From Dehalococcoidia bacterium (lineage in GTDB: Bacteria; Chloroflexota; Dehalococcoidia; Tepidiformales; Tepidiformaceae), in NCBI GenBank assembly GCA_009841435.1, contig VXLW01000069.1, positions 1 to 64,000 on the forward strand: a stretch of DNA of 64,000 bases, read 5' to 3'. Below the pieces are notes generated by a model, which was not told the origin of the DNA, did not search any database, and saw nothing but the letters and a program-made list of their open reading frames with translations. How positions within the stretch are numbered: position 1 is the stretch's first letter; the number at the start of each line of letters is the position of its first letter. Positions 40,737 to 57,560 of this stretch are shown piece after piece. A program made the translations under genes and the position numbers.

Positions 40737-42437
40737 CTACCACTCCCGCTCGAGGTAGGTCTCGAGCACCGCGTAGAAGTGGCGCAGCTTCATCTCGTTG
40801 TAGTCGGCGAGCTGAAGCGTGCCGCCCTCAAGCGAGTGCACGCCTTTCTGGACCCAGGGCATGTTGCCCGTGTCCTGGTCCATGACCATGGCGAGGCCGC
40901 CGATCTCAGGAGCGAGGGTCCAGCTGTCGTCGACATCGAGCTCGTGGACGGGGGGCGCCGGCGGAGGCTCGGTGCCCTCGGGCGTGGGGGCGACGCAGAT
41001 CGCCTCCATGACGCACTCCTCCGGGTTGTTGCCGTTGGGGCGGAAGCGGAACCAGATGGCGAGTGGCCCCCATGCGCTCGCGGGCATGAGGTTGGGGAAC
41101 AGGTTGAAGTAGATGTTCCCCGTCAGCTCCGTGTCGGAGACCTTGTCCATGAGGTCGCCGAGGAGGGGGCGCATGGCCTCTCGCATGTCGTTGGCGGCCT
41201 TGGCCCGGACGGCCGCTGTCGCACGAATGCGGTCCTCGCGGGTCTGGGGCTCGGCGGGGGCGGCTGGCTCGTCGTCCTCGATCTGGGCATAGAGCTCGGA
41301 GCCGTCGGGCGTGACGCCGTTCTCTGAGGGCGATGAACCGTTGTCGTCGAGGCGACCGCCGGTGCTGTTGGGGTCGAGGTCCTCGGGAACGGCCATCTTG
41401 AGGTGGTCGGCTACCTGCTCGCCGCCAACCCACTGGCAGAGGTGCAGGTCGGCATGGCCGAGGTCGCCCTCGACCCAGACGGCCTGGCGCGTGAAGACGC
41501 CGCTTCGCCCATCGGGCATGGTGACATCGACATTGCCGTCAGGGCGGCGCTCGTAGATGGCGCCGGTGAAGGCGTGGCGCTCGCGGGGAACGCCGTCGGT
41601 GGAGGGCGGGAGCGGAGTCCACTCGATGCCCTCAAGGTGGGGGCTGGGGGCGCCGGCGGGGTTGTGCTGGCGCGAGTAGTTCTTGAAGGCGTCGAACTGG
41701 GCGTTGCAGTCGCCGAAGCCCCAGACGACCTGGGGGTGGGTCGAGAAGACGTGCCAGGACTCGGCGAAGGCGTCCTGGGCGACCTTCCAGTTGGCGCGGA
41801 TGACCTTGCGCACCTCGGCGACCTTGTGGCGCTTCTCGTAGGGGAGGAGCTGGAAGTTATCGGGGAAGTCGTCGAGGAACTCCTCGAAGGGCTCACAGTC
41901 GGGATCGGGGTTGATGAAGAGGAAGCGTCCCCAGCGCCCAACGGGCACCTCGGGGAGGTTCTGCTCTTCCTTGACGACGTAGGGGAAGTCCCACTGGCAG
42001 GGGATCTCCTTGATGGAGCCGTCGAGGTGCCAGGCCCAGGCGTGGAAGGGGCAGCGCAGCTCGTGGGTCTTCTTGCCGGCGCGCTCCTTGAGGCGGCGGC
42101 CACGATGGAGGCAGGCGTTGCGGAAGGCCTTGAACTCGTCCTCTGCGGTGTGAACGATGAGGAAGCTGAGCTCGCCGATCTCATACGGCATGTAGTCGCC
42201 GACGTTGGGAATGTCGTCCTCGTGGCAGGCCATCTGCCAGACGTGCTTCCAGAGCTGCTCCATCTCCCTCTCGTGGTGCTCGCGCGAGTAGTAGAACTCG
42301 GCCGGGACGAGGGTGGGGCCGGGAGGCATGGCCGACTCGCGGCTGAGGTATTCAGGCACCTCGTGCGTGTCGTACTTGATCAGCTCCTGGACGGAGAGTC
42401 CGGCAGAGCGGTTGGTGCCAGTCAGGGTTTCAACCAT
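40737..42437 (-). CDS. Rieske non-heme iron ring-hydroxylating oxygenase, alpha subunit
   Basis: A 566-residue oxygenase, longer than the usual 430-460. The Rieske [2Fe-2S] site is C109-x-H111 ... C129-x2-H132. The catalytic iron ligands lie in AFAESWHVFSTHPQ (two His; the C-terminal Asp is expected near EDRIRATAAV or later). Between about residues 330 and 415 there is a low-complexity, acidic Ser/Pro/Ala/Glu insert inside the catalytic domain. No beta subunit or reductase is adjacent. The N-terminal MVETLTGTNRS start agrees with the gap before tRNA-Lys. Confidence 0.87.
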   Translation of the reverse strand: MVETLTGTNRSAGLSVQELIKYDTHEVPEYLSRESAMPPGPTLVPAEFYYSREHHEREMEQLWKHVWQMACHEDDIPNVGDYMPYEIGELSFLIVHTAEDEFKAFRNACLHRGRRLKERAGKKTHELRCPFHAWAWHLDGSIKEIPCQWDFPYVVKEEQNLPEVPVGRWGRFLFINPDPDCEPFEEFLDDFPDNFQLLPYEKRHKVAEVRKVIRANWKVAQDAFAESWHVFSTHPQVVWGFGDCNAQFDAFKNYSRQHNPAGAPSPHLEGIEWTPLPPSTDGVPRERHAFTGAIYERRPDGNVDVTMPDGRSGVFTRQAVWVEGDLGHADLHLCQWVGGEQVADHLKMAVPEDLDPNSTGGRLDDNGSSPSENGVTPDGSELYAQIEDDEPAAPAEPQTREDRIRATAAVRAKAANDMREAMRPLLGDLMDKVSDTELTGNIYFNLFPNLMPASAWGPLAIWFRFRPNGNNPEECVMEAICVAPTPEGTEPPPAPPVHELDVDDSWTLAPEIGGLAMVMDQDTGNMPWVQKGVHSLEGGTLQLADYNEMKLRHFYAVLETYLEREW

Positions 42438-42539: not shown

Positions 42540-42612
42540 GGGCCCGTAGCTCAGATGGAAGAGCAGTGGACTTTTAATCCATTGGTCGGGAGTTCGAGTC
42601 TCCCCGGGCCTA
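42540..42612 (+). tRNA. tRNA-Lys (anticodon TTT)
   Basis: A complete 73-base cloverleaf. Acceptor GGGCCCG pairs with CGGGCCT (one G-T), D stem GCTC/GAGC, anticodon stem GTGGA/TCCAT with loop CTTTTAA giving anticodon TTT at 42573-42575, and T stem GGGAG/CTCCC with loop TTCGAGT. The discriminator is A and CCA is not encoded. It marks the left edge of the accessory region. Confidence 0.95.
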
Positions 42613-43027
42613 CATGCACGCACGGAGGCTCCAAGGTCGGCAGAAGCATGGATCGCCTGGGTACTCATCACCACTGGCTTGCCCCAACGATTACGATGCT
42701 GGAACAAGCCGCCAAGAGCGGAGCTTTCTCTGCTCACGGGGGAGAGGAACGTGCAGGCTTCCCTTCGACCTCCTTGGCCTCCTTCAGGGATCATCGCGGG
42801 CCCCTTCGTGAGCTGCCGGCTTGAGCTGACTGCAGCGCTCCGAGGTCTCTGGTCATGGCCGGGCAGGGCGGAGCGCTTGCTTTCAGTAAGGCGTTCGACT
42901 GCTGCGATAGCGAGCAAGAGGAGTCACGGCTCATGGTCGCCACTCGGGCCACTCGGCACGGCCCTGGGTCAGCCGGTCCAGGGTCGCAGTCGCCACGTGC
43001 CCGATGTGGCCGGGAGTGAGGCGTGAA
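42613..43027. other. gene-free stretch after tRNA-Lys
   Basis: No convincing coding sequence, RNA or long repeat is visible in these 415 bases. Open frames here are short or lack codon bias. I looked for a second copy of the tRNA 3' end, as expected for an integrase site, and did not find one here or near 55.8-56.6 kb. It may be eroded mobile-element DNA. Confidence 0.4.
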
Positions 43028-43702
43028 TTGTCCGTAGTGGTAGAAACAAGTCTGACGGTCCGACCGATAGGCATCATGAATCGCTTCGTTGAGACGTATG
43101 CGAGTGACGTGTTGCCTCTCCATGCGAAGCACGGGTTTGACCTGCTCGGTGGGTGGAGTCGGGCCGGGGGGACCGGCCAGCAGGTGGTGCACCTCCACCG
43201 ATTTGACGATCTCGCCGCGTATGAGCGGGCTCGAGCGTCCATCGCTGGGGACGCCGCTGTGGCCGCCATGGTCGAGGACCACGCTCGGGAGATGTCTGTG
43301 ACCGAGTCGATCGTGCTTGGCGAAACCACGGCCTACGCCACCGACGCGCGGCTCAGGCAGGGGCGAGTCCGCGAGGGCGACGCGCCCTTGACGTACATCC
43401 AGAGGGTCTCGCGAGCCCGCTTCCCCCATCGCCCGGAGGTCGCCCGGCTTCTTGCGAGGATCGTAGATGCCGTGGAGGCCTCGAACGCGATCTCCCTCGT
43501 GACCGCTTACCAAGCGGTCACGGGACCAACGAGCGATGTGACAGACCTATTCGTCCTGCCGAAGGGTGAGGGGGCCTTGCCCGAAGCGAACGCCGCCGAG
43601 CGAGCGCTCGAGGGCGGGGTGGTGGCGGAGAGATTCCACGCCCTTCTCGAAGACGAGATCGTTTACCGACTGCGGCCGCTCCCATACTCGCCCCTGCAGT
43701 AG
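43028..43702 (+). CDS. NIPSNAP-family protein, copy 1
   Basis: A 224-residue protein made of two ferredoxin-like halves. HAKHGFDLLGGWSRAGGTGQQVVHLHRFDDLAAYERARASI is the NIPSNAP (dimeric alpha-beta barrel) core. TTG 43028 is chosen because alignment with the second copy at 52.7 kb starts exactly there and both are then 224 residues; GTGAGG lies nine bases upstream. Both end LPYSPxQ. NIPSNAP proteins bind small molecules or act as oxygenase-like enzymes in some catabolic clusters; here the reaction is unknown. It leads the ABC permease genes by 393 bases. Confidence 0.75.
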   Translation: MSVVVETSLTVRPIGIMNRFVETYASDVLPLHAKHGFDLLGGWSRAGGTGQQVVHLHRFDDLAAYERARASIAGDAAVAAMVEDHAREMSVTESIVLGETTAYATDARLRQGRVREGDAPLTYIQRVSRARFPHRPEVARLLARIVDAVEASNAISLVTAYQAVTGPTSDVTDLFVLPKGEGALPEANAAERALEGGVVAERFHALLEDEIVYRLRPLPYSPLQ

Positions 43703-44095
43703 CACGCGCGGCCCAGCCGCGAAAAGGCAGACCCGAGGCGTCGAGTCGGCCGGCGGTGTGGCAACCCGCCAGGATCAGTCGTGGGAGCCGATAACCCCTC
43801 GTTGTGTGTCTCGAGGCGGTGGCCCCGTCGACGCGAGCGAGGTCAACCGCCGTTCGGCGAGTGACAAGAACGATGAGTTCCCTGCTACAGTGGCACCCCT
43901 CGTAACGGAGCGCTCGCTCGTTGCGGCGACGTGCTTGAGTGTCCGAGGGGAGGAGCCGGCCCAACGGAACACACACCGTTCCGAGGGAGAGCACCCCAAG
44001 GGGTGATACCCCGGCGCTTCGGCGCCTGTGCGTCGGCACGCGCACGCCGCCTCCTGGCGAAAGACCGCCCTCGACGCTCCGGACGGACGTGAGCC
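43703..44095. other. gap before the ABC permease genes
   Basis: No gene is supported in these 393 bases. CGGAAC (43965-43970) and GTTCCG (43978-43983) form a short hairpin. GTGACA (43861-43866) with TACAGT (43886-43891) is a weak promoter candidate for the permease operon, with a 19-base spacer. Confidence 0.35.
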
Positions 44096-45082
44096 ATGCG
44101 AGGCTACATCGTCCGCCGCTTGCTCCTGAACCTGGTGGTGGTGTGGATCGTCGCGACGCTGGTGTTCCTGGCGCTACGTGTTCTACCGGGCGACTACGCC
44201 GCCGAGCAGGTGGCCTTGCGCTTTTTCACGGGCGTGGGCGATGGCCGCTCGGCAGACGAAGCGCTCGCCGACGCCCGCGCCGAGCTTGGCCTCGATAAGT
44301 CCATCCCCGAGCAGTATGTCCGCTACATCTCAGATCTGCTCAGCGGCGATCTTGGGAAGTCTTTTGTGACCCGTCGATCGACGGTCGACGAGGTCGGCCG
44401 GGCGCTACCCTACAGCCTCCAGCTGGGCGTGATGACGGCCGTGATCGCCGTGCTCATCTCGTTACCCGTGGGGGTGATCTCTGCGGTTAGACCCGGATCG
44501 CTCGTCGATCACCTCTTGCGCTTCGTCGCAATCATCGGGCTCGCCGCGCCATCGTTCTGGATAGCAACGATGTTCACCCTCCTCGTTCTGCGTTTCGACT
44601 TCTGGAGGATCGATGTGGTGGGCACCCCGGGCATCTGGGCCGAACCCCTCAGGAGCCTGGAGCTCTTTGTGATCCCAGCCGTTGCCGGCGGCCTAGCGAG
44701 CGGCGCCATCCTCATGCGCTACATCAGATCGCAGTTACTCGAAGTTCTCGGTCATGACTACATCCGAACGGCGCGCTCGAAGGGCTTGCGGGAGCGCACG
44801 GTGATACTGAGGCACGCAGTGAAGAACGCGCTCATCCCGGCGATCACGGTTCTCGGGTTCGTGATTCTCGCGGTTGTCAACGGGTCGGTGATTCTCGAAG
44901 CGATGTTCAACATCCCGGGGATGGGCCGAGCCATCGTGGGCGCTGTGCAATCGCGGGACTTCCCGATGGTGCAGACCCTGGTCGTCGCGATAGCGGTAGG
45001 CGTCGTGACGATTAACCTCCTCATCGACATGTGCTACTTCTATATCGACCCCCGAGTGAGCGTGAGCGGCTCCAGTGCGTGA
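44096..45082 (+). CDS. ABC transporter permease, DppB/OppB type
   Basis: A 328-residue inner-membrane permease. The start MRGYIVRRLLLNLVVVWIVATLVF, the periplasmic loop with LGLDKSIPEQYVRYISDLLSGDLGKSF, and the EAA loop DYIRTARSKGLRERTVILRHAVKNALIP mark the peptide/nickel-type (DppB) permeases with six helices. It pairs with the DppC-type gene next door; GTGA at its end overlaps the probable start of that gene. Substrates of such importers include peptides, sugars and nickel chelates; the binding protein at 48.1 kb is the likely partner. Confidence 0.92.
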   Translation: MRGYIVRRLLLNLVVVWIVATLVFLALRVLPGDYAAEQVALRFFTGVGDGRSADEALADARAELGLDKSIPEQYVRYISDLLSGDLGKSFVTRRSTVDEVGRALPYSLQLGVMTAVIAVLISLPVGVISAVRPGSLVDHLLRFVAIIGLAAPSFWIATMFTLLVLRFDFWRIDVVGTPGIWAEPLRSLELFVIPAVAGGLASGAILMRYIRSQLLEVLGHDYIRTARSKGLRERTVILRHAVKNALIPAITVLGFVILAVVNGSVILEAMFNIPGMGRAIVGAVQSRDFPMVQTLVVAIAVGVVTINLLIDMCYFYIDPRVSVSGSSA

Positions 45083-46104
45083 CCCGGTGGGCGCTCGAAG
45101 CGAAACGGGTTGGGGCCGAGCCGATGCATAGGACGCCGCCCTCAAGGACTCCGAGCTCGAGACAGGGTGGTTCAGCGATCCCTGATACCTGGGACTTGGG
45201 CTTGCGTGACGAGCGCATGGCCTGGGTCGCAGGCCTGCGATCGATTCCGCGACGCGTTGGTCTGCTGGGCATGATCGGTGCTGCGCTCGTGGTACTGGTG
45301 GGGCTCGTCGCTCTTCTCGGCCCCGGGTTGTCTCCTTATGGCAAGGACGATGTCGTCTGGGTCGACGTCGAGTCCCCGGATAGCGACTCGCCAAGCGCGG
45401 CTCGGCGGTTGGCCATCCTCGCTGGTCCCTCGCTCTCACACCCACTTGGGACTGACAACCTCAGTCGTGATCTCATGACCCGCGTGATCCACGGCTCGCG
45501 TATCGCGCTGATTGTTGGCTTCGGCGCGGCGTTAATGGGCACGGCGGTCGGCGTCCTCATCGGCATCGTCTCAGGGTATTTCGGTGGAATCGTCGACATC
45601 GCGATGCAGCGCGTTGTGGACTCGATCATCGCAATGCCAGGCATCGTCATCCTGCTGCTGTTCACGCAGATCGGTGAACGTAGTCTCACGCTTACGGTGA
45701 CAGCGCTCGGATTCCTGGGAACGGTAAGCGCCGCGAGAGTGGTGCGCGCAGCAACGCTCTCGGTGAGAGGAGAGGTCTACATGGAGGCAGCGCGATCGAC
45801 CGGTGCCAGCGACCTCCGGATGATGGTGCGACACATTCTTCCGAACATCGTTGCGCCCATCGTCATCATTTTCTCGATCGCGGTCGGAACGAACATCCTT
45901 GCGGAGTCGGGACTGGCCTTCCTCAATCTCGGTGTCCCTGGCCCGAGCTGGGGGAACATGGTCAGCGAGGGCCGCGCGTTTTTGGATAGCAAGCCAATGA
46001 TGAGCTTGGCTGCCGGCGGCGCCATCACCATGACCGTGTTGGGCTTCAACCTCGTGGGCGATGGCATCCGCGATGGCTTTGACCCCACGCGCCGCTCGGG
46101 TTAG
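45079..46104 (+). CDS. ABC transporter permease, DppC/OppC type
   Basis: A 341-residue permease with a long hydrophilic start. HPLGTDNLSRDLMTRVIHGSRIALIVG and the EAA loop VYMEAARSTGASDLRMMVRHILPNIVAPI are the DppC signatures; PSWGNMVSEGRAFL precedes the final helix. I place the start at GTG 45079, which overlaps the dppB stop in GTGA; ATG 45124 is the other choice and would drop 15 residues. No ATPase gene (DppD/DppF) follows; the next gene is an amidohydrolase. Confidence 0.88.
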   Translation: MTRWALEAKRVGAEPMHRTPPSRTPSSRQGGSAIPDTWDLGLRDERMAWVAGLRSIPRRVGLLGMIGAALVVLVGLVALLGPGLSPYGKDDVVWVDVESPDSDSPSAARRLAILAGPSLSHPLGTDNLSRDLMTRVIHGSRIALIVGFGAALMGTAVGVLIGIVSGYFGGIVDIAMQRVVDSIIAMPGIVILLLFTQIGERSLTLTVTALGFLGTVSAARVVRAATLSVRGEVYMEAARSTGASDLRMMVRHILPNIVAPIVIIFSIAVGTNILAESGLAFLNLGVPGPSWGNMVSEGRAFLDSKPMMSLAAGGAITMTVLGFNLVGDGIRDGFDPTRRSG

Positions 46105-46249
46105 CGAAGCCAAGCCAGAGCACTAGTCCAGACTCTGATTCGCAGTGAGCACCGCAGAGCCCGAACTTGACGACCTGACGTATACTCGCCAACGCAACTT
46201 GTCATTCCTCGCACCATACGAGCAGGGGACTGACGGAGGTCACCAGGCC

Positions 46250-47983
46250 ATGCCGGAGTTTGACACTGTTATCAAGGGGGGGACCGTCATCGACGGCCTC
46301 AGGACTCCCCGCTTCACCGGTGACGTCGGTATCAAAGACGGGAACGTCGCCTACATTGGTCGCATTTCCAGCCATGAAGGAGCGAGGGTGCTTGACGCCA
46401 GCGGTCTGATCGTGGCACCGGGCTTCGTTGATCTGCACACGCACTACGACTCCCAGGTCTATTGGGACCCCTGGTGCACCATTTCCGGGTGGCACGGTGT
46501 GACGTCGGCGGTGATCGGGAACTGCGGCTTCGGCTTCGCGCCGGTGAAGCCAGAGGACCGGGACCGAGCCATGCTCACCATGACGAGGAACGAGGCTGTT
46601 CCGCTGGCCAGCATGAAGGCGGGCATGCCCTGGGACTGGGAGTCGTACCCGGAGTTCCTCGACAGCATCGATCGCACGCCCAAGGGCATCAATCTTCTTA
46701 GCTACGTGGGGCTGAATCCCCTTCTGATGTACGTGATGGGGCTCGAGGAGGCGAAGAATCGCCCCGCAACCGACGCTGAGCGCGCAGAGATGTGCAAGCT
46801 CCTCGAGGAGGCTATCGAGGCCGGTGGCTGCGGCCTTTCTACCCAACTCGCGGGCGAGGACAGCAACCAGCGGGACTACGACGGGACGCCCATGGCGACC
46901 GACACGATGTCCGAGGACGACCTGGTCGCCCTTGCCTCGGTTCTGGGCAAGGTCCGCAAGGGATTCATCCAGGTCTCCGGCGCCCGGGCGACATCGGAGC
47001 TGGTCAATCGGCTCGCCGAGGCGAGTGGGCGTCCCATTGTCTATAACGCCCTCGCCGCGCTCACCGATCAGCACGGTGTTGCGCTCCCCGGCTACAAGGA
47101 GACCAAGGCGTGGATCGAGGACGCGAATAAGCGGGGCAACCGCGTGTTCGCGCAGGCGATCACCACGGCGATCGCCTTCGAGTTCCAGCTCGAAGAGTGG
47201 AGCCTCTTCGACAATGTCCCCTCTTGGCGCGAGGCCCTGTTCGGAACAAGAGAGGAGAAGATCGAAAACCTTAACGACCCCGAGCGCCGAGCGCTCTTCA
47301 GAGCCGAGTACGACGCCGGGAAGGGGCCCGTCACCGGCGCGGGAACCGAGGACAAGGGCATCATCTCAGGCAGCGGGATTGCGGAACTCAGGGTCGAGAT
47401 CGTGGAAGAACCATCCCTGCAGCAGTACGAGGGGTTCACGATCCGCGAGATCGCCGAGCGCGAAGGCAAGCACATTGTCGACGCCTTCCTGGACATCGGC
47501 GTGGCGGACAAACTGCGGTCGACCTTCGGCTCGCCGCCCGCACGGATGGATATGAAGGCGATGAAGGAGATCGCGAACTCGCCGTTCGCCCTTCCGGGCC
47601 TCTCGGACGGTGGCGCCCACACAAAGTTCATCACGATGGGCGCATACCCGACGGAGTACATCGAGGTTCTGGTGCGCGAGAACGAACTCATGGACCTGGA
47701 GGAAGCGCACTGGCGGCTGAGCACCTATCCCGCCATGGCTGCGGGGTTCAAAGATCGGGGCTGGATCAAGGAGGGCTCACCGGCAGACATCATCGTCTAC
47801 GACTTCGAGAAGCTGCGGCGGACGGAGACGAGGCGAGCCTACGACTTCCCCGCCAACGAGTGGCGCCTCGTGCGTGAAGCCGAGGGCTACCGATGGATCA
47901 TGGTGAACGGCAAGACGACGTTCGAGGATGGCAAGTGCACCGGGCTCACCCCCGGGAAGCTCATCCGCCACGGTCAGGGCTAA
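46250..47983 (+). CDS. amidohydrolase, D-aminoacylase-like family, copy 1
   Basis: A 577-residue metal-dependent hydrolase of the N-acyl-D-amino-acid deacylase/amidohydrolase 3 type. GFVDLHTHYDSQV holds the HxH metal ligands, VIGNCGFGFAP the Cys ligand and LPGLSDGGAHTKF the catalytic Asp. ATG 46250 has GGAGGT upstream and gives exactly the length of copy 2. Unlike copies 2 and 3, two histidines are replaced: Ala245 in QVSGAR and Tyr265 in IVYNAL. Substrate range therefore probably differs. It follows dppBC by 145 bases and precedes the binding protein. Confidence 0.85.
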   Translation: MPEFDTVIKGGTVIDGLRTPRFTGDVGIKDGNVAYIGRISSHEGARVLDASGLIVAPGFVDLHTHYDSQVYWDPWCTISGWHGVTSAVIGNCGFGFAPVKPEDRDRAMLTMTRNEAVPLASMKAGMPWDWESYPEFLDSIDRTPKGINLLSYVGLNPLLMYVMGLEEAKNRPATDAERAEMCKLLEEAIEAGGCGLSTQLAGEDSNQRDYDGTPMATDTMSEDDLVALASVLGKVRKGFIQVSGARATSELVNRLAEASGRPIVYNALAALTDQHGVALPGYKETKAWIEDANKRGNRVFAQAITTAIAFEFQLEEWSLFDNVPSWREALFGTREEKIENLNDPERRALFRAEYDAGKGPVTGAGTEDKGIISGSGIAELRVEIVEEPSLQQYEGFTIREIAEREGKHIVDAFLDIGVADKLRSTFGSPPARMDMKAMKEIANSPFALPGLSDGGAHTKFITMGAYPTEYIEVLVRENELMDLEEAHWRLSTYPAMAAGFKDRGWIKEGSPADIIVYDFEKLRRTETRRAYDFPANEWRLVREAEGYRWIMVNGKTTFEDGKCTGLTPGKLIRHGQG

Positions 47984-48142
47984 GGGCGCTGGCTAGGACA
48001 CGACGAGTTACGCAGCGAGACCGCGGAGGGCTCGTGCGGCAGCAGGCCTTGGGGCTCTATGCAGCGTCCCGGGCCTGCAAGGGGCCTCGCGAGCCATCAC
48101 CGGCACATGTTGAGGAAACCGGCCTGATCCAGGAGGGACCCA

Positions 48143-50059
48143 ATGGCGAGTGATTACTGGGATCGATACTTTCGGCGAGCGCGGCGTGTGCGCACCAGTA
48201 GGCGGCGGTTCCTTCAAGGAGCCGCGACAGCCGGGATCGGAGCCGCCGGCTTAGGTCTCGTCGGTTGCGGCGACGACGATGTAGAGGAGCCTACGGCCAC
48301 AAGCGAGCCAGGCGAGACGCCGGATCCAACGGCCACAAGCGAGCCAGGCGAGACGCCGGATCCAACAGCCACAGCGCGGCCAGGAGAGACACCACAGCCC
48401 ACAGCCACAGCCGCAGCGACGGAAGCGCCACCGGATACCTCCGCCGTCCCCACCGATGGGAGCTACTACAGCCAGGTGGGCGAACCATTCGTTGGGATCA
48501 CCCTCGACATCCATCGCGGCGTATCTGGGATCGCTGGCGGCGTCGAAGGGAGCGCGTACAGCGGGCTCATCCGCTTCGACGACATCCCAGCGCCAACCTT
48601 CAGAGGCGACCTCGCGCGTGGCCTTCCTGAGCAACCCGACGCTGTCACCTACATCTTCGAACTGCGTGACGATGTGGTCTGGCACGACAAGGCCCCGACC
48701 AACGGGCGGTCCTTCACGATGGACGACGTGCGCTGGAACCTGGATAGGCAGCTGACTCGGACACTTGCGGACGGCACTGTGGCCGACGATTTCACGCTTA
48801 CGAACACCGTCTTCACCCACATCGACAGCCTCGACTACGTCAACGACGAGACCATCTCGTTTACGCTGAAACAACCTCGAGGCACGTGGCTCGAGTCTCT
48901 AGCGTTTGCCGGTTTTATGGACCAAGGCGTCGCTGAGCAGATCGAGAGCGACCCTGACGTCATCTCCGCCGACCGCATCGTTGGCACCGGCGGTTACATG
49001 TTCACCGAGTTCGTGCCAGACGGCCGTCGAATAGCTGAGCGCCATCCCAATTGGCACCTTAGGCAAGCGGGCGAGGAAGTGCAGTACTTCGACGCCTTGG
49101 CCCTGCTCGACGTCGGTGCTGACGTGAATGCTGTGCGGATCGCGCTTGAGCAGAAGCAGGTTGACTGGATCGGTGGGCGATTCCAACGGCAGGCCTACGC
49201 GCCGGAGTTCATGCAGGCGATCCAGGACGCGAACTCCGACATCGAACGGCTGGACGTCCCCGCGCTGAACGCGAATAGGGCACTCATCTACAGCTGGGAG
49301 ATTGGCCCGTTCAGCAACCCGATGATCCGGCAGGCTTTCTACCTCGCCCTCGACAGGCAGCTTGTCCTACAGCAGGACTTCGCCGGGGAAGGAAGGATCA
49401 CGGGGCCTCTGCCGTGGGCGTTCACCGACTGGGCGCTCTCTGAAGAAGAGATCCTTCAGCAGCCCGGGTACGCGCTCAACAAGGACGACGAGCTTCAGGA
49501 GGCGCGGCAGCTCTGGGAGGCTGGCGGCGGGGAGGATCTCGAAGACAACATCGAGCTTGTCGCGAACGAACCGGACGCCGTGAGGCTCTCCGAGTGGTTC
49601 ACCGCGATGATGAACCGGAACCTGGGGACTGACAAGATCGAGGTGAAGGGCATTCCCGGGGGGAGCATCCTGCCCTATCTCACGGGGGAGGACCCGATAG
49701 CCTTCCTCACGCCTGTATCTGCGTGGACGAGCCCCGACCCTCGGCAGCGACTCGCGCGTTCGTATACAACGGCAGGCTCTATCAACTTCGGGAAATACAG
49801 CAACCCGGATATGGACGACCTCTTCGATCAGGCGGCAGCCACACTTGATCGGGATGAGGCGATCAGCGCGATGAAGGACATCCAGCGCTTGGCCATGACG
49901 GAGTCGGGGGCAGGCACCATTCTCATGGCGGCTGCGACGGGCCGGTTCCTCAAGTGGCCCTACCTCAAGATGGAATTCAACCCATGGAGGCTGCCTGTGG
50001 ACGAACGCTCGTGGATCGATCAGTCCGACCCGACGTTCAGCGGTCGGCCCAGCCTCTAA
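48143..50059 (+). CDS. ABC transporter substrate-binding lipoprotein (SBP_bac_5), Tat-exported
   Basis: A 638-residue binding protein. The N-terminus has a twin-arginine signal (SRRRFLQG) and a lipobox (LGLVGC), so it is Tat-exported and lipid-anchored. Residues about 49-95 form a Pro/Thr/Glu linker built on a 12-residue repeat (TATSEPGETPDP). The rest is a family 5 solute-binding domain, with FELRDDVVWHDKAP, SFTMDDVRWNLDR and SNPMIRQAFYLALDRQLV. It very likely feeds the DppBC-type permeases, although the amidohydrolase gene separates them. ATG 48143 has GGAGG upstream. Confidence 0.9.
   Translation: MASDYWDRYFRRARRVRTSRRRFLQGAATAGIGAAGLGLVGCGDDDVEEPTATSEPGETPDPTATSEPGETPDPTATARPGETPQPTATAAATEAPPDTSAVPTDGSYYSQVGEPFVGITLDIHRGVSGIAGGVEGSAYSGLIRFDDIPAPTFRGDLARGLPEQPDAVTYIFELRDDVVWHDKAPTNGRSFTMDDVRWNLDRQLTRTLADGTVADDFTLTNTVFTHIDSLDYVNDETISFTLKQPRGTWLESLAFAGFMDQGVAEQIESDPDVISADRIVGTGGYMFTEFVPDGRRIAERHPNWHLRQAGEEVQYFDALALLDVGADVNAVRIALEQKQVDWIGGRFQRQAYAPEFMQAIQDANSDIERLDVPALNANRALIYSWEIGPFSNPMIRQAFYLALDRQLVLQQDFAGEGRITGPLPWAFTDWALSEEEILQQPGYALNKDDELQEARQLWEAGGGEDLEDNIELVANEPDAVRLSEWFTAMMNRNLGTDKIEVKGIPGGSILPYLTGEDPIAFLTPVSAWTSPDPRQRLARSYTTAGSINFGKYSNPDMDDLFDQAAATLDRDEAISAMKDIQRLAMTESGAGTILMAAATGRFLKWPYLKMEFNPWRLPVDERSWIDQSDPTFSGRPSL
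48293..48364 (+). repeat. two exact 36-bp direct repeats in the lipoprotein linker
   Basis: 48293-48328 and 48329-48364 are identical 36-base units, in frame, each encoding TATSEPGETPDP; a third, degenerate unit follows. Exact identity at DNA level in a fast-changing linker indicates recent slippage or duplication, with copy number likely to vary between strains. Confidence 0.9.
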
Positions 50060-50072
50060 GTCCATCGAGTGC

Positions 50073-50099
50073 AGGATGACGCACCTGGTGCGTCATCCT
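50073..50099 (+). terminator. terminator-like hairpin after the binding-protein gene
   Basis: AGGATGACGCA, five bases, TGCGTCATCCT: a perfect 11-bp stem, extendable to 13 bp, 13 bases past the stop codon. No T run follows. It separates the transporter unit from the VOC/amidohydrolase unit. Confidence 0.65.
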
Positions 50100-50244
50100 A
50101 CGTCGACCAAAAGGACGATCCACTGCACCGCATCAGTCTCAGGCGGGAGGGCAGGGAGAGCCAAACGCGCCGGTTGTCCGAGGGCGGTTCGAGCGCACCT
50201 CGGTGAGTCGGTGAGCAGGGCTACGGCCAAAGGACGGACGGTTG

Positions 50245-50685
50245 ATGATCGAGGCGGTCGGAGCAACGTCGATCAGCGTCAGCAATCTTGATCAGGCGAT
50301 CGATTTCTACACACGCCTCCTGGGATTCGAGGAGTACCGGGAGAGGCTCCACATCCGAGGGCCCGCCATCGAGAAGATATTCGGGATTCCGACCGCTGAG
50401 GGGGACGTCGCTTTCGTACGCCTGGGTGGATTCGATCTCGAGCTGTTCGCCTTCGAGGCGCCTGACGGATTCAAGAAGAACCCGTTGCGCTTCAGCGACA
50501 CCGGTGGCTTCTCTATGTCCCTTCGCTCGGGCTCGTTCGACGACGAGTATCGCCGTCTCAAGCGCGAGGGTGTGAGCTTCAAGTCCGAGCCTGTCGAGTA
50601 CGAGGGGCGGATTAAGGTCGCGGTGATGTGCGATCCGGATGGGAACTGCATGCAGCTCACATCCTGGCCGGCGGAGGAGGCCTAG
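50245..50685 (+). CDS. VOC-superfamily (glyoxalase/dioxygenase fold) protein
   Basis: A 146-residue protein with two beta-alpha-beta-beta-beta units. The start ATSISVSNLDQAIDFYTRLLGFEEY and end VMCDPDGNCMQLTSW are typical VOC strands; likely metal ligands are Glu in FDLELFAFE and the Gln/Glu near CMQLT, but the usual first-strand His is Ser, so a standard His-His-Glu site is incomplete. It may bind or isomerise a small molecule without metal. ATG 50245 is preceded by AGGACGG; an overlapping TTG at 50242 is possible. Confidence 0.78.
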   Translation: MIEAVGATSISVSNLDQAIDFYTRLLGFEEYRERLHIRGPAIEKIFGIPTAEGDVAFVRLGGFDLELFAFEAPDGFKKNPLRFSDTGGFSMSLRSGSFDDEYRRLKREGVSFKSEPVEYEGRIKVAVMCDPDGNCMQLTSWPAEEA

Positions 50686-50862
50686 CATTGGGCGGGGTGA
50701 GGCGCGGCCGGCGCGAAGCCGAGCAGCGAAGATCGCCATCGAGCCCCGCCCCGGGGAGCGCGAGCAAGGCCGCGCACCACGGACGACAGAATGGAATAAT
50801 CGGGACAACGACCCTCGACAGCTAACGAGCCCCGGGCAAGCCCCGAGTGAAGGAGAGAGGCA

Positions 50863-52596
50863 ATGGCAGAATTCGACACTGTGATCCGAGGCGGCGCCAT
50901 AATCGACGGTTTGCGCACGCCGCGCTACACCGGTGACATCGGCATTAAGGACGGCCGCATCGCCTACATGGGCCGACTGAGCGCGAGCGACGGCGACAAC
51001 GTGATCGACGCTGATGGTTTCATCGTCGCCCCCGGCTTCGTGGACATGCACACCCACTACGACGGACAGGTGTTCTGGGATCCCTACTGCACGATGTCGG
51101 CCTGGCACGGCATCACCTCCGTGGTGGTGGGGAACTGCGGATTCAGCTTCGCGCCCGTCGAGCCGGAGATGCGCGACCGGGCGATGCTGATGCTCTCGCG
51201 GACCGAGGCAATCGAGCTCGAGGCCCTCCAGGCCGGCATGCCCTGGGACTGGGTGACCTTCCCCGAGTACATGGACAGTCTCGAGGGCAAACCGAAGGGT
51301 GTGAACGTCGCCAGCTACTGCGGCGTCTCGCCGCTCATGATGTCGACCATGGGGCTGGAGGCAGGCAAGAGCCGCACGGCTTCGGCGGATGAGATCACGA
51401 AGATGTGCGCGTTGTTCGATGAGGCCCTGGACGCCGGCGCGGTCGGTTGGTCAGCGCAGTGGGCTGGCCAGGATAGCGGCCAGCGCGATTACGACGGGAC
51501 GGCCATGCTGTCCGACCTGATGTCCGTTGAACAGGCGCACGCACTGTGCGAAGTCCTTGCCCGGCGAGGGCAGGGCATGACTCAGATCAACGGACACGGC
51601 GCCGGTGAGTCATACGCTGATGTGTGGGCTCGACACGAGAAGCTCGCCGAGATCAGCGGCAGGCCGGTGATCCACAACGTCATCGAGTTCTTCACCGGCG
51701 TCGACGGCAAGGCGCACGGCAACTACGTGGACACGATCGAATGGCTGGCTGCCGCGAACGCACGCGGCAATCGAGTCTTCGGGCAGGCCGTGACCGCCCC
51801 GGTCGCCCCCGACTTCACGTTCGAGGACTTCAACCTGTTCGACCGCAGCCCCATCTGGCGAGAGGCGACGCTCGGCACCGTTCCGGAGCGCACGGCCAAG
51901 CTGGCCGATCCCGAGCGCCGCGCGGCTCTGAAGGCGGAGTTCGACGCTGGCGATGCGCCCGCCGTCACGTTCTCCGGGACGATGGACGACCTCGTCATCG
52001 CCGAAGTCGAGAACCCTTCGCTCAAACACTACGAGGGGATGAGTGTCCGCGAGATCACGGAACTCGATGGGAAGCATACGATCGACGCGATGCTCGACAT
52101 CACCGTCGCTGATCAGCTCAAATCGCTCTTCCACACTCCCGTCGCAGATCCGGACGCGGAGGCAGCGAAGCTCGTGCTCCGCTCGCCCTTCGCGATACCG
52201 GGTGTATCCGACGGCGGGGCTCATACGAAGTTCCTCACCCTCGGGTCGTACCCCACCTACCTCATCGCTCGGCTGGCGCGTGACAACGACGTCATGGACC
52301 TCGAGGAGGCGCACTGGCGCCTCAGCGCGTACCCCGCCCAGGTTCTCGGCTTCAAAGACCGCGGCTGGCTGCGCGAAGGGGCCGCTGCGGACATCGTGAT
52401 CTATGACCTCGACAACCTCAGCATCAGGAAGCGGGAGCGGCTCGACGACCAACCCGCGGGTGCGTGGCGTCGCGTCCAGAAGGCTGACGGGTACAAATGG
52501 ATCCTCGTCAACGGCGAGGTCACGTTCCAGGATGGGGAGTGCACGGGTGCGACGCCCGGGGGCCTTCTCCGAAATGGGGAGGTTCGCTCGGCATAG
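50863..52596 (+). CDS. amidohydrolase, D-aminoacylase-like family, copy 2
   Basis: A 577-residue enzyme of the same family and length as copy 1. Metal ligands are in DMHTHYDGQV, VVGNCGFSFAP and IPGVSDGGAHTKF. His245 (QINGHG) and His271 (VIHNVIEFF) are present, as in copy 3 and D-aminoacylases, so this copy looks fully catalytic. GAAGGAGAG lies before the ATG. It shares nearly all N-terminal motifs with copy 3 (54.9 kb), from which it seems more recently duplicated than from copy 1. Confidence 0.88.
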   Translation: MAEFDTVIRGGAIIDGLRTPRYTGDIGIKDGRIAYMGRLSASDGDNVIDADGFIVAPGFVDMHTHYDGQVFWDPYCTMSAWHGITSVVVGNCGFSFAPVEPEMRDRAMLMLSRTEAIELEALQAGMPWDWVTFPEYMDSLEGKPKGVNVASYCGVSPLMMSTMGLEAGKSRTASADEITKMCALFDEALDAGAVGWSAQWAGQDSGQRDYDGTAMLSDLMSVEQAHALCEVLARRGQGMTQINGHGAGESYADVWARHEKLAEISGRPVIHNVIEFFTGVDGKAHGNYVDTIEWLAAANARGNRVFGQAVTAPVAPDFTFEDFNLFDRSPIWREATLGTVPERTAKLADPERRAALKAEFDAGDAPAVTFSGTMDDLVIAEVENPSLKHYEGMSVREITELDGKHTIDAMLDITVADQLKSLFHTPVADPDAEAAKLVLRSPFAIPGVSDGGAHTKFLTLGSYPTYLIARLARDNDVMDLEEAHWRLSAYPAQVLGFKDRGWLREGAAADIVIYDLDNLSIRKRERLDDQPAGAWRRVQKADGYKWILVNGEVTFQDGECTGATPGGLLRNGEVRSA

Positions 52597-52709
52597 AGTC
52601 GCACCCACCGCCGACGCTACCCGCCGCGAGGCGGCGCTCTTCGGGCACTCCCCCTGCGAATTGCCTGAAGCCGTCGCTGTAGCCAACCAGGCCGAGCCAG
52701 GAGGTCGCC

Positions 52710-53384
52710 GTGAGCATCATCGTCGAGACCCTCGTCACCCTCCGACCCCCCGCGGTGATGCCCGTGTTCATCGAGGTGATGGCGGAGAAGGCCATGCCGC
52801 TCCTGAAGCGGCACGGCCTCGATCCGTTCGCTGCCTGGTCCCAAGCCGGTGGACCGGCGCAGCAGGTGATGCACCTCAGTCGCTTCGACAGTCTCGCCTC
52901 GTACGAACGGGCGCGAGCATCCATCGAGAAGGAGTCATCCCGGGGCACTTGGATCGTCGAGGCGCTGCAGGGCGTCGACGTCACGGAGGTCATCAGTGTT
53001 GGCGAGCCTTCGCCTTACTCGCCTGACGAACGGATCGATCGAGCGCTCGCGGAATCTGGCGCCTCTCCGAGGAAGTGTTTCCAGCGGATTGCGCGCATGC
53101 GCCTCGGCATGGAGGAGGAGGCGAAGGCGCATCTCGCCGTCATCATTCGTGAGGTCGAGAAGAACAGCGGCGCGATCCAGCTCATCACGGGCGTCCAATC
53201 GATTCTGGGTCGACGTGACGAGCTCAAGGACACATTCATCCTCCCCAAGGGTCAGGATGCGCTGGCCGAGGCACGAGCAGCAGAGGCCGCTATCGAGGGC
53301 GACACCGTCGATCGCTGGCACGCCTGCCTTAAGGAAGAGGAGACGCTCTTTCTGAACCCACTCCCCTACTCACCGATTCAGTAG
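52710..53384 (+). CDS. NIPSNAP-family protein, copy 2
   Basis: A 224-residue paralogue of the gene at 43.0 kb; blocks such as WSQAGGPAQQVMHLSRFDS, SYERARASI and the ending LPYSPIQ line up without gaps of note. GTG 52710 follows AGGAGGTCGCC, a strong ribosome site. It directly follows amidohydrolase 2, which suggests that the two act in one pathway; copy 1 is paired with the transporter and amidohydrolase 1. Confidence 0.8.
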   Translation: MSIIVETLVTLRPPAVMPVFIEVMAEKAMPLLKRHGLDPFAAWSQAGGPAQQVMHLSRFDSLASYERARASIEKESSRGTWIVEALQGVDVTEVISVGEPSPYSPDERIDRALAESGASPRKCFQRIARMRLGMEEEAKAHLAVIIREVEKNSGAIQLITGVQSILGRRDELKDTFILPKGQDALAEARAAEAAIEGDTVDRWHACLKEEETLFLNPLPYSPIQ

Positions 53385-53613
53385 CGCTGTGGGCGGACCC
53401 CCGTTGGCCGGGGGAGTCAGGTTGTCGCGGGGACCTCAGCGGCTCAGCGTGAAGCCCCCGTGGCCGTTCGCTGCAGCCCTTCGAGTTGCTGAGGATCCGG
53501 GAGAGCTGATGCCAGCGAGCGGCTCGACCACCAGGCGGTCAGGAGATCGTCTCGCTCCGCGTCCTTCGCACGCTGGGTTCCAGAACCCGCGCTCCGTCAG
53601 CTAACCAGGAGAG

Positions 53614-54474
53614 TCAGGTTTGGTCATCCGACCTCTGATGTACCCAGGAGCGCAGTGCTTCGCGGGCCTTGGGCCACCGGAGGATGCCGTGATCGCCGCC
53701 CGGCACGAGGACGAGCTCGGCGCCGGGAATCCCCTCCGCCAGCTCGACTCCGTGCTCAGTCGGAACGATGCTGTCGCTATCGCCGTGTATGACCAGAACG
53801 CGATGTTCGGCGAGGGGGCCGAGGTCCTCACTCGTGTCGAAGGTGAGGTGTGCGCGCCAGTTGCACAGCTCTCCCAAGGCGAACGCCTTTAGCTCTTCCT
53901 CGGGTGTCTCACGGATAACCTTGAACTGGGCGTCGACACGCGCATGCATCTCGCCGCGATCGGCCTCGATCGCACCCGGGTGGCGCACGCTCGGCAACTG
54001 AATGTTGTAGATGCTCTCCCGGCGGCGCTCGAAGACCGCATCGCTGCCCTCACGCGAAGCGAGCTCTACCATCTCGGCGAGGGGCGCATAGAAGGGAGCG
54101 TCCTTCATGTGGGCGCTGGTGTTGACCAGGGCGAGGGCGGCAATTCGCCCCGGATGACGAAGCGCTAGGGTCTGGGCGATCGTCCCGCCCATCGAACTGC
54201 CGACGATGACCGCCTCGTCGACGCCGAGATACGCGAGGAGCGCGGCCGCTTCGTCACCGAGGTCGTCCTGGGTGTAGACCTCGTCGCGAATCTCGCTTCG
54301 GCCGCAGTTGCGCCGGTCGTACTCAATCAAGCGGACCTGGTCGACGGCCTCCCGGATGGGCGGGGCGAGAGCTACGGAGGTACCACCGAAGCCACCGTGG
54401 ATGAAGAGCACGGGATAACCGGAGCCGGTGTCCGTGTAGTTGATCTGCCAGCCGCCGATGTCGGCCGTGGGCAT
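53614..54474 (-). CDS. alpha/beta-fold hydrolase
   Basis: A 286-residue serine hydrolase. VLFIHGGFGGTS is the oxyanion loop, VGSSMGGTIAQ the nucleophile elbow, HGDSDSIVPTEHG the acid region and PGGDHGILRW the His. It resembles lactonases and proline-iminopeptidase-like hydrolases. It is the only minus-strand intact gene in the island and faces amidohydrolase copy 3 divergently, so the 437-base gap carries both promoters. Confidence 0.87.
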   Translation of the reverse strand: MPTADIGGWQINYTDTGSGYPVLFIHGGFGGTSVALAPPIREAVDQVRLIEYDRRNCGRSEIRDEVYTQDDLGDEAAALLAYLGVDEAVIVGSSMGGTIAQTLALRHPGRIAALALVNTSAHMKDAPFYAPLAEMVELASREGSDAVFERRRESIYNIQLPSVRHPGAIEADRGEMHARVDAQFKVIRETPEEELKAFALGELCNWRAHLTFDTSEDLGPLAEHRVLVIHGDSDSIVPTEHGVELAEGIPGAELVLVPGGDHGILRWPKAREALRSWVHQRSDDQT

Positions 54475-54911
54475 CGTTTGGGCCTCCTTGCGCCAAGAGC
54501 GCTGGCGATGATAGCCCTCGTAGGCATCTTGCCTAGCGGATACACAGTGACTTGTGCCGATCGCGACGATCGAAGCAGCCGCCGCGCATCTGGGGGGCGG
54601 TCTCCTACTGAGCGTCGAAAGAGGAAAAGGATCGTCACCTCGGCGCTGGTAGCTTCTGCTCTAAGGGACGAGCCAGGACTATCCCTTCTCTCCTTGCTCG
54701 GTGTCCAACGTGTGCTGTCTGAGAAACCCATCCGCGCTGAGCTACCACGTTCTGAGACACCCCCCGGGAGGCTCGATCTCGGCGTCGCATACGGATTCTG
54801 CTTAGTGCTCAACGCATGGTGCTATGCTGCGCCCAACGGCCCGCTCAGAATCGAAGTCGATGCGCGCCGAGGGCTTGGGCTGCGGACACGGCGCTGAAGT
54901 GAGGGAGTGCC
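54475..54911. other. divergent promoter gap
   Basis: No gene is supported here. TGCTATGCT (54820-54828) is an extended -10-like element about 84 bases before amidohydrolase copy 3; its -35 region is weak. Base composition is noticeably less G+C-rich than the chromosome on either side. Confidence 0.35.
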
Positions 54912-55802
54912 ATGGCAGAGTTCGAAACCGTCATCATCGGCGGTACCATCATCGACGGCCTCCGCACACCGCGATTCACCGCAGACATAGGGATCAAGGG
55001 TGGTCGGGTAGCGTACATCGGCCGGCTGCAGCCCCATGAGGGTGACGAGGTGATCGACGCCAGCGGGCTAATCGTCGCCCCCGGCTTCGTGGACGTGCAC
55101 ACCCACTACGACGGCCAGATCTTCTGGGATCCCTACTGCACGATGTCGGGCTGGCACGGCATCACCTCAGTCGTGGTGGGGAACTGTGGCTTCAGCTTTG
55201 CGCCGGTGAGGCCCGAGATGCGCGACCGGGCAATGCTCATGCTCTCCCGAACGGAGGCCATCGAGCTCGAGGCCCTCCAAGCGGGGATGCCGTGGGACTG
55301 GGTCACCTTCCCCGAATACCTCGACAGCCTCGATCGACAGGCGAAGGGCGTGAACGTCACGAGCTACTGCGGCGTTTCGCCGCTCATGATGTGGGTCATG
55401 GGACTGGAGGCCGGGAAAGGGCGAACGGCGACGGACGACGAGATCGAGCAGATGTGCGTCCTTCTCGACGAGGCACTGGAGGCGGGAGCCTGCGGCTGGT
55501 CTGCACAGTGGGCAGGGAATGACAGCGGTCAGCGCGACTACGACGGCACATCAATGCTCTCCGACCTCATGTCGGTGGAGCAAGCTCATGGCTTCTCGGA
55601 GGTGCTAGCAAGGCGCCGCACGGGGTTGACGCAGATCAACGGCCACGGGGCGAACCGCCCATTTACGGAGACTTGGGCGAGGCACGAAAAGCTCGCTGAG
55701 ATCAGCGGACGGCCCGTGCTCCACAACGTGGTCGAGTTCTTTACGGACCAGCAGGGCAACGCGGTGGGGAACTACCGGGAGACGATCGAGTGGCTCAACG
55801 CA
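54912..55802 (+). pseudogene. amidohydrolase copy 3, truncated at residue 295
   Basis: The first 295 residues align residue for residue with copy 2, including DVHTHYDGQI, VVGNCGFSFAP, QINGHG and VLHNVVEFF. Homology stops after IEWLN; in copy 2 the protein continues for another 282 residues with the metal-binding Asp (SDGGAH). The frame runs on to 56021 over unrelated DNA. The start and ribosome site (GAGGGAG) are intact, so a half protein could be made, but it should be inactive. Confidence 0.85.
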
Positions 55803-56509
55803 TGCAAGCGCTCGAGTTCTGTGTCGACGCTAGCGATGGTGTCCGCCAAGTCCCTCTCTTCGGGGGTGAACCAGTCCGACGGTTGGCTTAGTCGAGGCGG
55901 CGGGACCGGTACCGACGCCGGGTCATTCTCGTGGACGTCAGCGAGGAAGGCCCTAAACCAGGCCGCGAGGTCAACCGTCTGTGGCAGAAGCAGTGCTGTG
56001 GGAGTTCCTGGTTCTCTGTAACCCGATCTCACAACGTCTGGCAGTGGCAATCGAAGCGCCACAGCGTGGCCGGAGGTTGTCTGAACTAAGGTGTTGGCTT
56101 CCTGGCGCGATGTACCGGCAACAGGGGGTGGGTTTTCTGCAACGCACAGCTGCCTGTTCAGGTCAAGGGCAAGTGGCTCATACCCCTTCGCGCAGTCGGG
56201 AGGCACTGTCAGTTCGCGCTCCGTGTTGCCGATGTTCGTTCTGGAGTAGTGCCGACTAGAACTGTATGGGCGCAAGTCCGGCCAGTTCATGGACATCGGC
56301 CCCACGGTCAATAAGTTGACCTCCTCACTGATACGAGCCTGATCGAGGGCGCGGGCGACAACAATGTCCGTCTCCGTCCAACTGAAGGCTCGGAGGTAGC
56401 CAGCTACCGAGCCGGCGCTCCTTAGCTCACCACACAGTAGAGCAATCGACTGAATCTGGGTTTCGTCCAATCCAATCGCGGCCACCCTTGGTCGCTTGCT
56501 GCTGGGCAT
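55803..56509 (-). pseudogene. unknown protein gene, 3' end lost at the island scar
   Basis: About 235 residues are readable from ATG 56509 (MPSSKRPRVAAIGLDETQ). An alternating strand/helix start (VAAIGLDETQIQSIALL...ETDIVVARAL) suggests a receiver-like or Rossmann-type N-terminal domain; later come a Pro-rich stretch and a predicted coiled helix (ERDLADTIASVDTELERL). The last ten codons before the stop at 55772 are simply the reverse of the amidohydrolase fragment, so the true C-terminus is gone. No family recognised. Codon bias is weaker than in neighbouring genes, which fits transfer. Confidence 0.55.
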
Positions 56510-56635
56510 ACTCTGACTCCGCTTCTATGCGTTCTAAGCATCCGGCCTACTGTGACTACGCACCCTGATCTTACTTCGCCTTTGTTTCGCCCCCCACCTT
56601 GTCTGCATGCCCCCCGGCTGGCCACCTGCTGTCCC

Positions 56636-56641
56636 TATAAT
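56636..56641 (+). promoter_or_regulatory. consensus -10 box before the PhyH gene
   Basis: TATAAT occurs 31 bases upstream of the PhyH start at 56673. No good -35 box is at the standard distance, so an activator or an alternative spacing may be used. Its presence excludes the in-frame ATG at 56640 as the start. Confidence 0.5.
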
Positions 56642-56672
56642 GGCGACGCCAGCGGGCGCCAGGAGCAGCGAG

Positions 56673-57560
56673 ATGACTACAGACACTGTCGCGGCGAGCT
56701 ATGACCTTGACCCTGCCGATCCGGTCGCGGGGATCACGGATGAGGTGATTGCGCGCTGGGAGAAGGATGGCGTGGTCATGCTGCGCGGGGCGCTTGGTCC
56801 CGAGTGGATGATGCTGCTCGCGATGGGGCTGGGACGGGTGCTCGCCGACACGGGCATGCACAAGGCCAAGTTCTACGAGGGTACGAGCGGGGAGTTCGAG
56901 GAGACTGTTCGGAACTTCGACCGCTCGTTCGAGATCAGGCGCCTGCTGTACGACTCGCCAATCAAGAAGATCCTGGGGCGGTTCATCAGGTCGGAGAACG
57001 TCTGGTACTACTCGGACGAGTTCTTCCTGAAGCACGAGGGCGGGGCGGAGCGCACGCCGTGGCACCAGGACACGCCGTACTACCCGATCGGCGGGTCGCA
57101 GTTCGCCTCGATGTGGATCTCGCTGGACGAGCTCAAGCGGGAAGAGTGCCTGGAGTTCGTCGCGGGGAGCCACCTGGGGACGATGTACGACGGATTCAAC
57201 CCGTCGAAGCCCGAGGACCCGTCGAGCGGGTTCTACGGCGAGGAGCTGCCGATCCTGCCGGACATCCAGGCGGACCGGGACAGCTTCCCGATCGTCGGCT
57301 GGGAGGTGAACCCCGGCGACGTGATCGTGTCCAACCCGCACATCATCCACGGCGGCGGTCCGACGAACCTCGACAGCCAGCGCCGCGCCCTTGCGGTGCG
57401 GATGTTCGGCGACGACGTCGTGTTCGCGGAGCGGCCGGCGTCGCGACCGACGGTGCCGATGACGCCGGGGCTGGGCATCCACCTGAAGCCGGGGGAGCCG
57501 CTGCGCAGCCCCTGGTATCCGCAGCTCGACCCGCCGCCCCCGTCGGAGAGTTACGGCTAG
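56673..57560 (+). CDS. phytanoyl-CoA dioxygenase (PhyH) family protein
   Basis: A 295-residue Fe(II)/2-oxoglutarate oxygenase. TPWHQDTPYYPI gives the His-x-Asp pair and NPHIIHGGGPTNLDSQRRALAVR the distal His and the 2-oxoglutarate-binding Arg. ATG 56673 has AGGAG eight bases upstream and lies downstream of TATAAT, so it is preferred over earlier ATGs. The substrate could be an acyl-CoA, a fatty acid or another small molecule. The P450 gene follows after 74 bases in the same direction, suggesting two oxidations in one pathway. Confidence 0.88.
   Translation: MTTDTVAASYDLDPADPVAGITDEVIARWEKDGVVMLRGALGPEWMMLLAMGLGRVLADTGMHKAKFYEGTSGEFEETVRNFDRSFEIRRLLYDSPIKKILGRFIRSENVWYYSDEFFLKHEGGAERTPWHQDTPYYPIGGSQFASMWISLDELKREECLEFVAGSHLGTMYDGFNPSKPEDPSSGFYGEELPILPDIQADRDSFPIVGWEVNPGDVIVSNPHIIHGGGPTNLDSQRRALAVRMFGDDVVFAERPASRPTVPMTPGLGIHLKPGEPLRSPWYPQLDPPPPSESYG

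Follow-up and report, generated by a model that had tools for sequence, protein, structure and literature searches.

A tRNA-Lys-bordered accessory island with uptake and putative degradation genes in an uncultured Dehalococcoidia genome

Gene content and boundaries of the island

We analysed a stretch of 64,000 nt (hereafter the window) at the start of contig VXLW01000069.1 of the Dehalococcoidia bacterium assembly GCA_009841435.1 and studied a ∼14-kb block of genes for uptake and degradation which adjoins the 3' side of a tRNA-Lys gene at a variable locus. Within an uncultured genus of the Chloroflexota (Dehalococcoidia), one species carries the block. The window is part of an 88.9-kb contig, and the whole assembly comprises 2.7 Mb in 127 contigs with a completeness of 89.8%. 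A Pfam search of the island proteins confirmed every gene name proposed by an earlier note on this DNA: NIPSNAP, DppB, DppC, the amidohydrolases, the binding protein, the VOC protein and the alpha/beta hydrolase (Table 1).

The block, which extends from 42614 to 56630, proved to be a genuine accessory island. The earlier note had already recognised an accessory block at 42613-56600, and comparison with eight congeners sharpened its edges. Orthologues of the Rieske gene on the left flank (40737-42437) and of the PhyH dioxygenase gene on the right flank (from 56670) were present in 8/8 congeners and stood side by side in seven of them. In six of these seven syntenic congeners the DNA homology on the left ended precisely with the final base of the tRNA-Lys (42613) and restarted at 56631-56632; in the most distant one it ended at 42617 and restarted at 56659. 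The distance from the Rieske gene to the PhyH gene is 14.2 kb here compared to 0.2-3.5 kb in the seven congeners, where the gap carries cargo unrelated to the island, such as RCC1-repeat-like proteins, or, in congener G033, an intact relative of the broken open reading frame ORFx. The sharp edge at the tRNA 3' end, the cargo varying among relatives and the lower GC content resemble other tRNA-associated genomic islands. The island has a GC content of 63-65%, compared to 67-69% on its left side, but this is weak as sole proof of an island because the stretch at 56-58 kb, outside the island, also shows 64%.

In congener G029 the 3' end of the tRNA-Lys occurs a second time, without mismatch over 29 nt, 2.3 kb downstream of the tRNA (L115 4869-4897; G029:C158:5500-13000, + orientation). 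Integrases leave second copies of this kind. A gene for an RCC1-repeat-like protein lies between both copies and the arrangement resembles an attachment-site scar.

Some details can be read directly from the protein sequences. The leader of the binding protein reads RRFLQG...LVGCG, the VOC protein has by eye S, E, S and Q at the usual metal-ligand positions, and the alpha/beta hydrolase contains the Ser nucleophile motif GSSMGG and the His in GGDHGI. The gene set is a new combination of known parts, and the island itself is ordinary. In agreement with the earlier note, which knew of no described pathway with this combination, a literature search found no gene cluster of NIPSNAP and amidohydrolase; nothing relevant was found on Tepidiforma or SAR202 with amidohydrolase.

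Table 1. Features of the island and its borders (positions in the window)
Feature	Position	Strand	Evidence and remarks
tRNA-Lys (ttt)	42540..42613	+	ARAGORN; final base forms the island's left edge
Accessory island	42614..56630		In congeners the syntenic gap shares no homologous DNA with it, ORFx remnant excepted
NIPSNAP 1, two-domain, 224 aa	43028..43702	+	PF07978, E 6e-13
DppB-type permease	44096..45082	+	PF00528 and PF19300; top NCBIfam match Opp2B, under cut-off
DppC-type permease	45031..46104	+	PF00528; true start probably within the ORF
Amidohydrolase AH1, Amidohydro_3, D-aminoacylase-like	46250..47983	+	Pfam and alignment; second-site His ligands absent
Family-5 substrate-binding protein (SBP_bac_5)	48143..50059	+	PF00496, E 3e-34; twin-arginine/lipoprotein leader
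VOC (glyoxalase-fold) protein	50242..50685	+	PF00903
Amidohydrolase AH2, Amidohydro_3	50863..52596	+	Pfam; predicted fold closest to D-aminoacylase 1m7j
NIPSNAP 2, two-domain	52710..53384	+	Pfam; C-terminal NPLPYSxxQ motif; structure model
Alpha/beta hydrolase	53614..54474	-	PF00561, E 9e-28
Amidohydrolase AH3, 5' half only	54912..55805	+	Partial Amidohydro_3; 79% identical to AH2
ORFx, N-terminal ∼240 residues only	55806..56509	-	53% identical to an intact 429-aa protein of congener G033
Right edge, congener homology restarts; PhyH-type dioxygenase gene, outside the island	56631..57560	+	Orthologues in 8/8 congeners

Two genes are interrupted at a single point close to the right edge. The third amidohydrolase, which the earlier note had correctly called broken, consists of a 5' half whose 0.9 kb match AH2 over 300 residues and are fused at ∼55805 to ORFx. 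The homology to AH2 ends at ∼55803 and the homology to the 429-aa protein of G033 begins at ∼55807. As AH3 and ORFx are convergent and the 3' ends are missing from both, a single deletion or recombination join accounts for both truncations. The truncated ORFx gave no match in Pfam or NCBIfam. Its intact relative (L116 2768-4057) lies at the same tRNA-Lys hot spot in G033 and adjoins the PhyH gene there; by eye we noticed a possible nuclease-like C-terminus. An abrupt join that disrupts two genes at once, in a metagenome-assembled genome with the contig number and completeness given above, speaks for an artefact of assembly or binning. We regard an artefact as extremely unlikely for the island as a whole: both flanks lie on one contig and match the congeners, the left edge is the exact tRNA 3' end, where real islands sit, the locus is variable in every congener with synteny, and the tree places the amidohydrolases in the clade of the genus itself.

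Amidohydrolases and their link to the importer

The earlier note had described two duplicated units, one composed of NIPSNAP, DppB, DppC, amidohydrolase and binding protein genes and the other of VOC, amidohydrolase and NIPSNAP genes. Both units do carry the amidohydrolase and NIPSNAP families but they are not recent copies: a recent duplication of the whole unit is ruled out by the identities of 56% between AH1 and AH2 and 44% between the NIPSNAPs. Only AH2 and AH3 (79%) are a young duplication. AH1 and AH2 are old paralogues at separate positions of the tree. The congeners have 2-6 amidohydrolases each, of the island subfamily or its 33-35% relatives.

Sequence and fold searches placed the amidohydrolases closest to D-aminoacylase and N-acyl-D-glutamate deacylase (1m7j, 3gip). 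These came first in the fold search (TM to target 0.78, E 9e-36) as well as in the sequence search, and their HTH, NCG and SDG motifs are kept by the island enzymes, which are however longer (577 aa compared to ∼480 aa). In D-aminoacylase the histidines of the THMRD and SHHK motifs and a Cys hold the catalytic zinc. The alignment with canonical plasmid members showed that the amidohydrolases keep the HxH and Cys ligands of the N-terminal part and the late Asp (H63, H65, C92 and D450 in AH2 numbering). AH1 and the paralogues of the genus lack both histidines of the catalytic metal site (THMRD and SHHK) and have Tyr, Trp or Ser instead, and AH2 and AH3 show at most one catalytic-site His, near the second position. 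The canonical D-aminoacylases at L139, L140 and L145 carry the full THMRD and SHHK histidines, and L141 has THVRS and SHLQ. With one or both catalytic-site His ligands missing, amide cleavage by the D-aminoacylase mechanism is not to be assumed for the island enzymes.

The genomic company of island-type enzymes also differs from that of D-aminoacylases in that it consists of oxygenase genes and not of amino-acid genes. Full-length relatives at 32-42% identity on sphingomonad plasmids (Novosphingobium pABRDHK22 and pNL2, Sphingobium pTomTYG65b) adjoin P450, EthD, Rieske, VOC and CoA-ligase genes, and within the genus one orthologue group of amidohydrolases adjoins two P450 genes. By analogy, this company points to a pathway in which AH1 and AH2 would act on oxygenated compounds rather than peptides. 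The plasmid systems differ from the island in having TonB-type uptake or no nearby transporter, and no NIPSNAP.

These observations also bear on the substrate that the earlier note had proposed, an imported amide, N-acyl amino acid or hydantoin which would be hydrolysed in the manner of a D-aminoacylase or hydantoinase. The kinship in fold and sequence described above, the peptide class of the importer and the ABC permease, RidA and alanine racemase genes next to canonical plasmid D-aminoacylases all favour such a substrate. It had been guessed from the family name, and we consider it decidedly unlikely given the missing THMRD and SHHK histidines in AH1 and its genus paralogues, the single catalytic-site His that AH2 keeps at most, and the position of the closer relatives in oxygenase clusters rather than amino-acid clusters. 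The more general part of the proposal, import followed by hydrolysis, is consistent with the presence of an importer and of hydrolase-fold enzymes.

The importer consists of two permeases and a family-5 binding protein and belongs to the peptide class. Outside the island we found DppB/DppC within 8 kb at 14/25 examined amidohydrolase loci of the genus, nearly all of them with a binding protein; the 25 loci include orthologues, so that 14/25 is not a count of independent events. The 14 linked loci span three orthologue groups and show varied gene orders. With just 13 DppB-type genes in the 2.7-Mb genome, an amidohydrolase would be expected to lie close to one at ∼7% per locus. In one orthologue group a block of DppB, DppC and binding protein genes lies between the amidohydrolase and P450 genes in G033 (L104) and is absent between the orthologous amidohydrolase and P450 genes in G000 (L052), which suggests that the importer block beside the amidohydrolase is a module that has been gained and lost. 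The link between amidohydrolase and importer is the sound part of the earlier note's idea.

Relatives and neighbours of the two-domain NIPSNAPs

NIPSNAP 1 and NIPSNAP 2 are 43-44% identical and mutually closest among known relatives, with ≤36% identity to any other genome, which makes two independent captures less likely. No two-domain NIPSNAP was present in the eight congeners. Among 84,980 species genomes scanned, we found 21 other two-domain relatives at ∼26-36% identity. At 17/21 of these loci a TIGR03564-like F420-dependent LLM oxidoreductase gene precedes the NIPSNAP gene in the same orientation, with 14-124 bp between them, the family assignment having been made on two of the 17. A CoA-transferase-like gene lies close by at most of the paired loci, and at L055 a DppC gene adjoins the LLM gene as well. 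The partners of these Dehalococcoidia pairs belong to the same two-domain family as the island NIPSNAPs and share the NPLPYS C-terminus, but the latter have no adjacent LLM gene. We found no published description of the LLM-NIPSNAP gene pair. The pair was seen at L055-L068, L070, L073 and L075 (17 Chloroflexota/Dehalococcoidia genomes), where the CoA-transferase-like gene is often upstream. Genome G000 gave 41 LLM-class oxidoreductase matches in 2.7 Mb, a strong expansion of paralogues.

The pairing of NIPSNAP with amidohydrolase is not conserved in other genomes. The earlier note had held that the grouping would be due to chance if no other genome shared it, and we found an amidohydrolase adjacent to none of the 21 other NIPSNAP loci; around 20 of them the island subfamily was absent within ≤10 kb on each side. 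A second case was considered at L069 (G008) and rejected: the amidohydrolase there is a fragment 8.3 kb away, on the far side of unrelated genes on both strands (by eye toxin-like, LLM, beta-lactamase-like and AAA). Co-occurrence in genus g36 (G254, G354 and G422) was likewise discarded as a pairing, as this is one lineage in which the genes are unlinked, the amidohydrolases forming a tandem pair on a different contig from the NIPSNAP.

Relatives of NIPSNAP 2 were absent from viral contigs, plasmids gave only a 51-residue match, and a sequence search against solved structures returned no match for NIPSNAP. The AlphaFold2 model of NIPSNAP 2 (pLDDT 91.5) shows two fused ferredoxin-like domains that form an alpha/beta barrel, and its fold neighbours are chlorite dismutase, coproheme decarboxylase and an uncharacterised marine protein. 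As the alignment has no invariant His to which heme could bind, we rejected a heme role. Our best guess is that NIPSNAP may be a cofactor-less accessory partner of an oxidoreductase.

The lack of the NIPSNAP-amidohydrolase pairing elsewhere weakens the pathway proposed in the earlier note and suits an explanation in which the hot spot gathered a transporter-amidohydrolase module and a VOC-amidohydrolase-NIPSNAP piece separately, with no common pathway. The separate tree positions of the old paralogues AH1 and AH2 and the unrelated cargo that the locus carries in congeners are in line with such an accumulation. We still judge it unlikely: the same rare pair of families occurs in both halves, and the two NIPSNAPs are closer to each other (43-44%) than to anything else (≤36%).

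Proposed function

We favour, with a probability of roughly 0.6, the reading that the 14-kb accessory catabolic island is an acquired cassette for uptake plus hydrolysis at a variable tRNA-Lys locus. The imported small molecule is probably oxygenated. The pathway that we infer, in its catalytic steps as well as its substrate, would run as follows. The family-5 binding protein, a lipoprotein exported by the twin-arginine route, would capture an organic compound, which DppB and DppC would import. Import would be powered by an ATPase encoded elsewhere in the genome, as the island has none. AH1 and AH2, with a D-aminoacylase fold and only the HxH/Cys/Asp site, would then break a bond by hydrolysis, either in the imported compound or in a product of it. 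The two-domain NIPSNAPs, whose relatives share operons with an F420-dependent LLM oxidoreductase, may handle an oxidised or reduced intermediate, the VOC protein may provide an accessory binding step and the alpha/beta hydrolase an esterase step.

Several points weigh against an acquired uptake and hydrolysis cassette. The permeases and binding protein of an Opp/Dpp ABC importer are present but the ATPase genes of the operon are not found among the annotated island genes, and NIPSNAP 1 is separated from DppB by a gap of 393 bp. No result points to a particular substrate. Unlike other tRNA-associated islands this copy has no integrase among its annotated genes and no exact attR-like repeat: neither the island nor its right edge contains an exact copy of the tRNA end, and the direct repeat was seen in congener G029 only. 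Finally, the island is known from one metagenome-assembled genome, and the junction at 55805 may be a mis-assembly.

A more specific version of the cassette can be formulated. AH1 and AH2 would stand for a family of D-aminoacylase fold in which the metal site has been rebuilt to hold a single metal and whose members hydrolyse an oxygenated ring or ester product and not an amide. The two-domain NIPSNAP would handle the substrate together with the amidohydrolase, a role that it would also have beside the F420-dependent oxidoreductase elsewhere, and the island would be a new mobile degradation pathway. We rate these claims, taken together, as very unlikely to hold in full.

The locus illustrates how degradation genes enter an uncultured Dehalococcoidia lineage at a variable site next to a tRNA gene. 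Two tempting assumptions are corrected as well, namely that the substrates of amidohydrolases of this kind are amides and that NIPSNAP is a partner of amidohydrolases. The recurrent links, amidohydrolase with Dpp importer and two-domain NIPSNAP with F420-LLM oxidoreductase, provide testable leads for two enzyme families that have no assigned function.

Far from the island, at positions 1827-2654 of the window, a small DNA-binding-like ORF is followed by a PIN-domain-like ORF, by eye a likely VapBC toxin-antitoxin pair.

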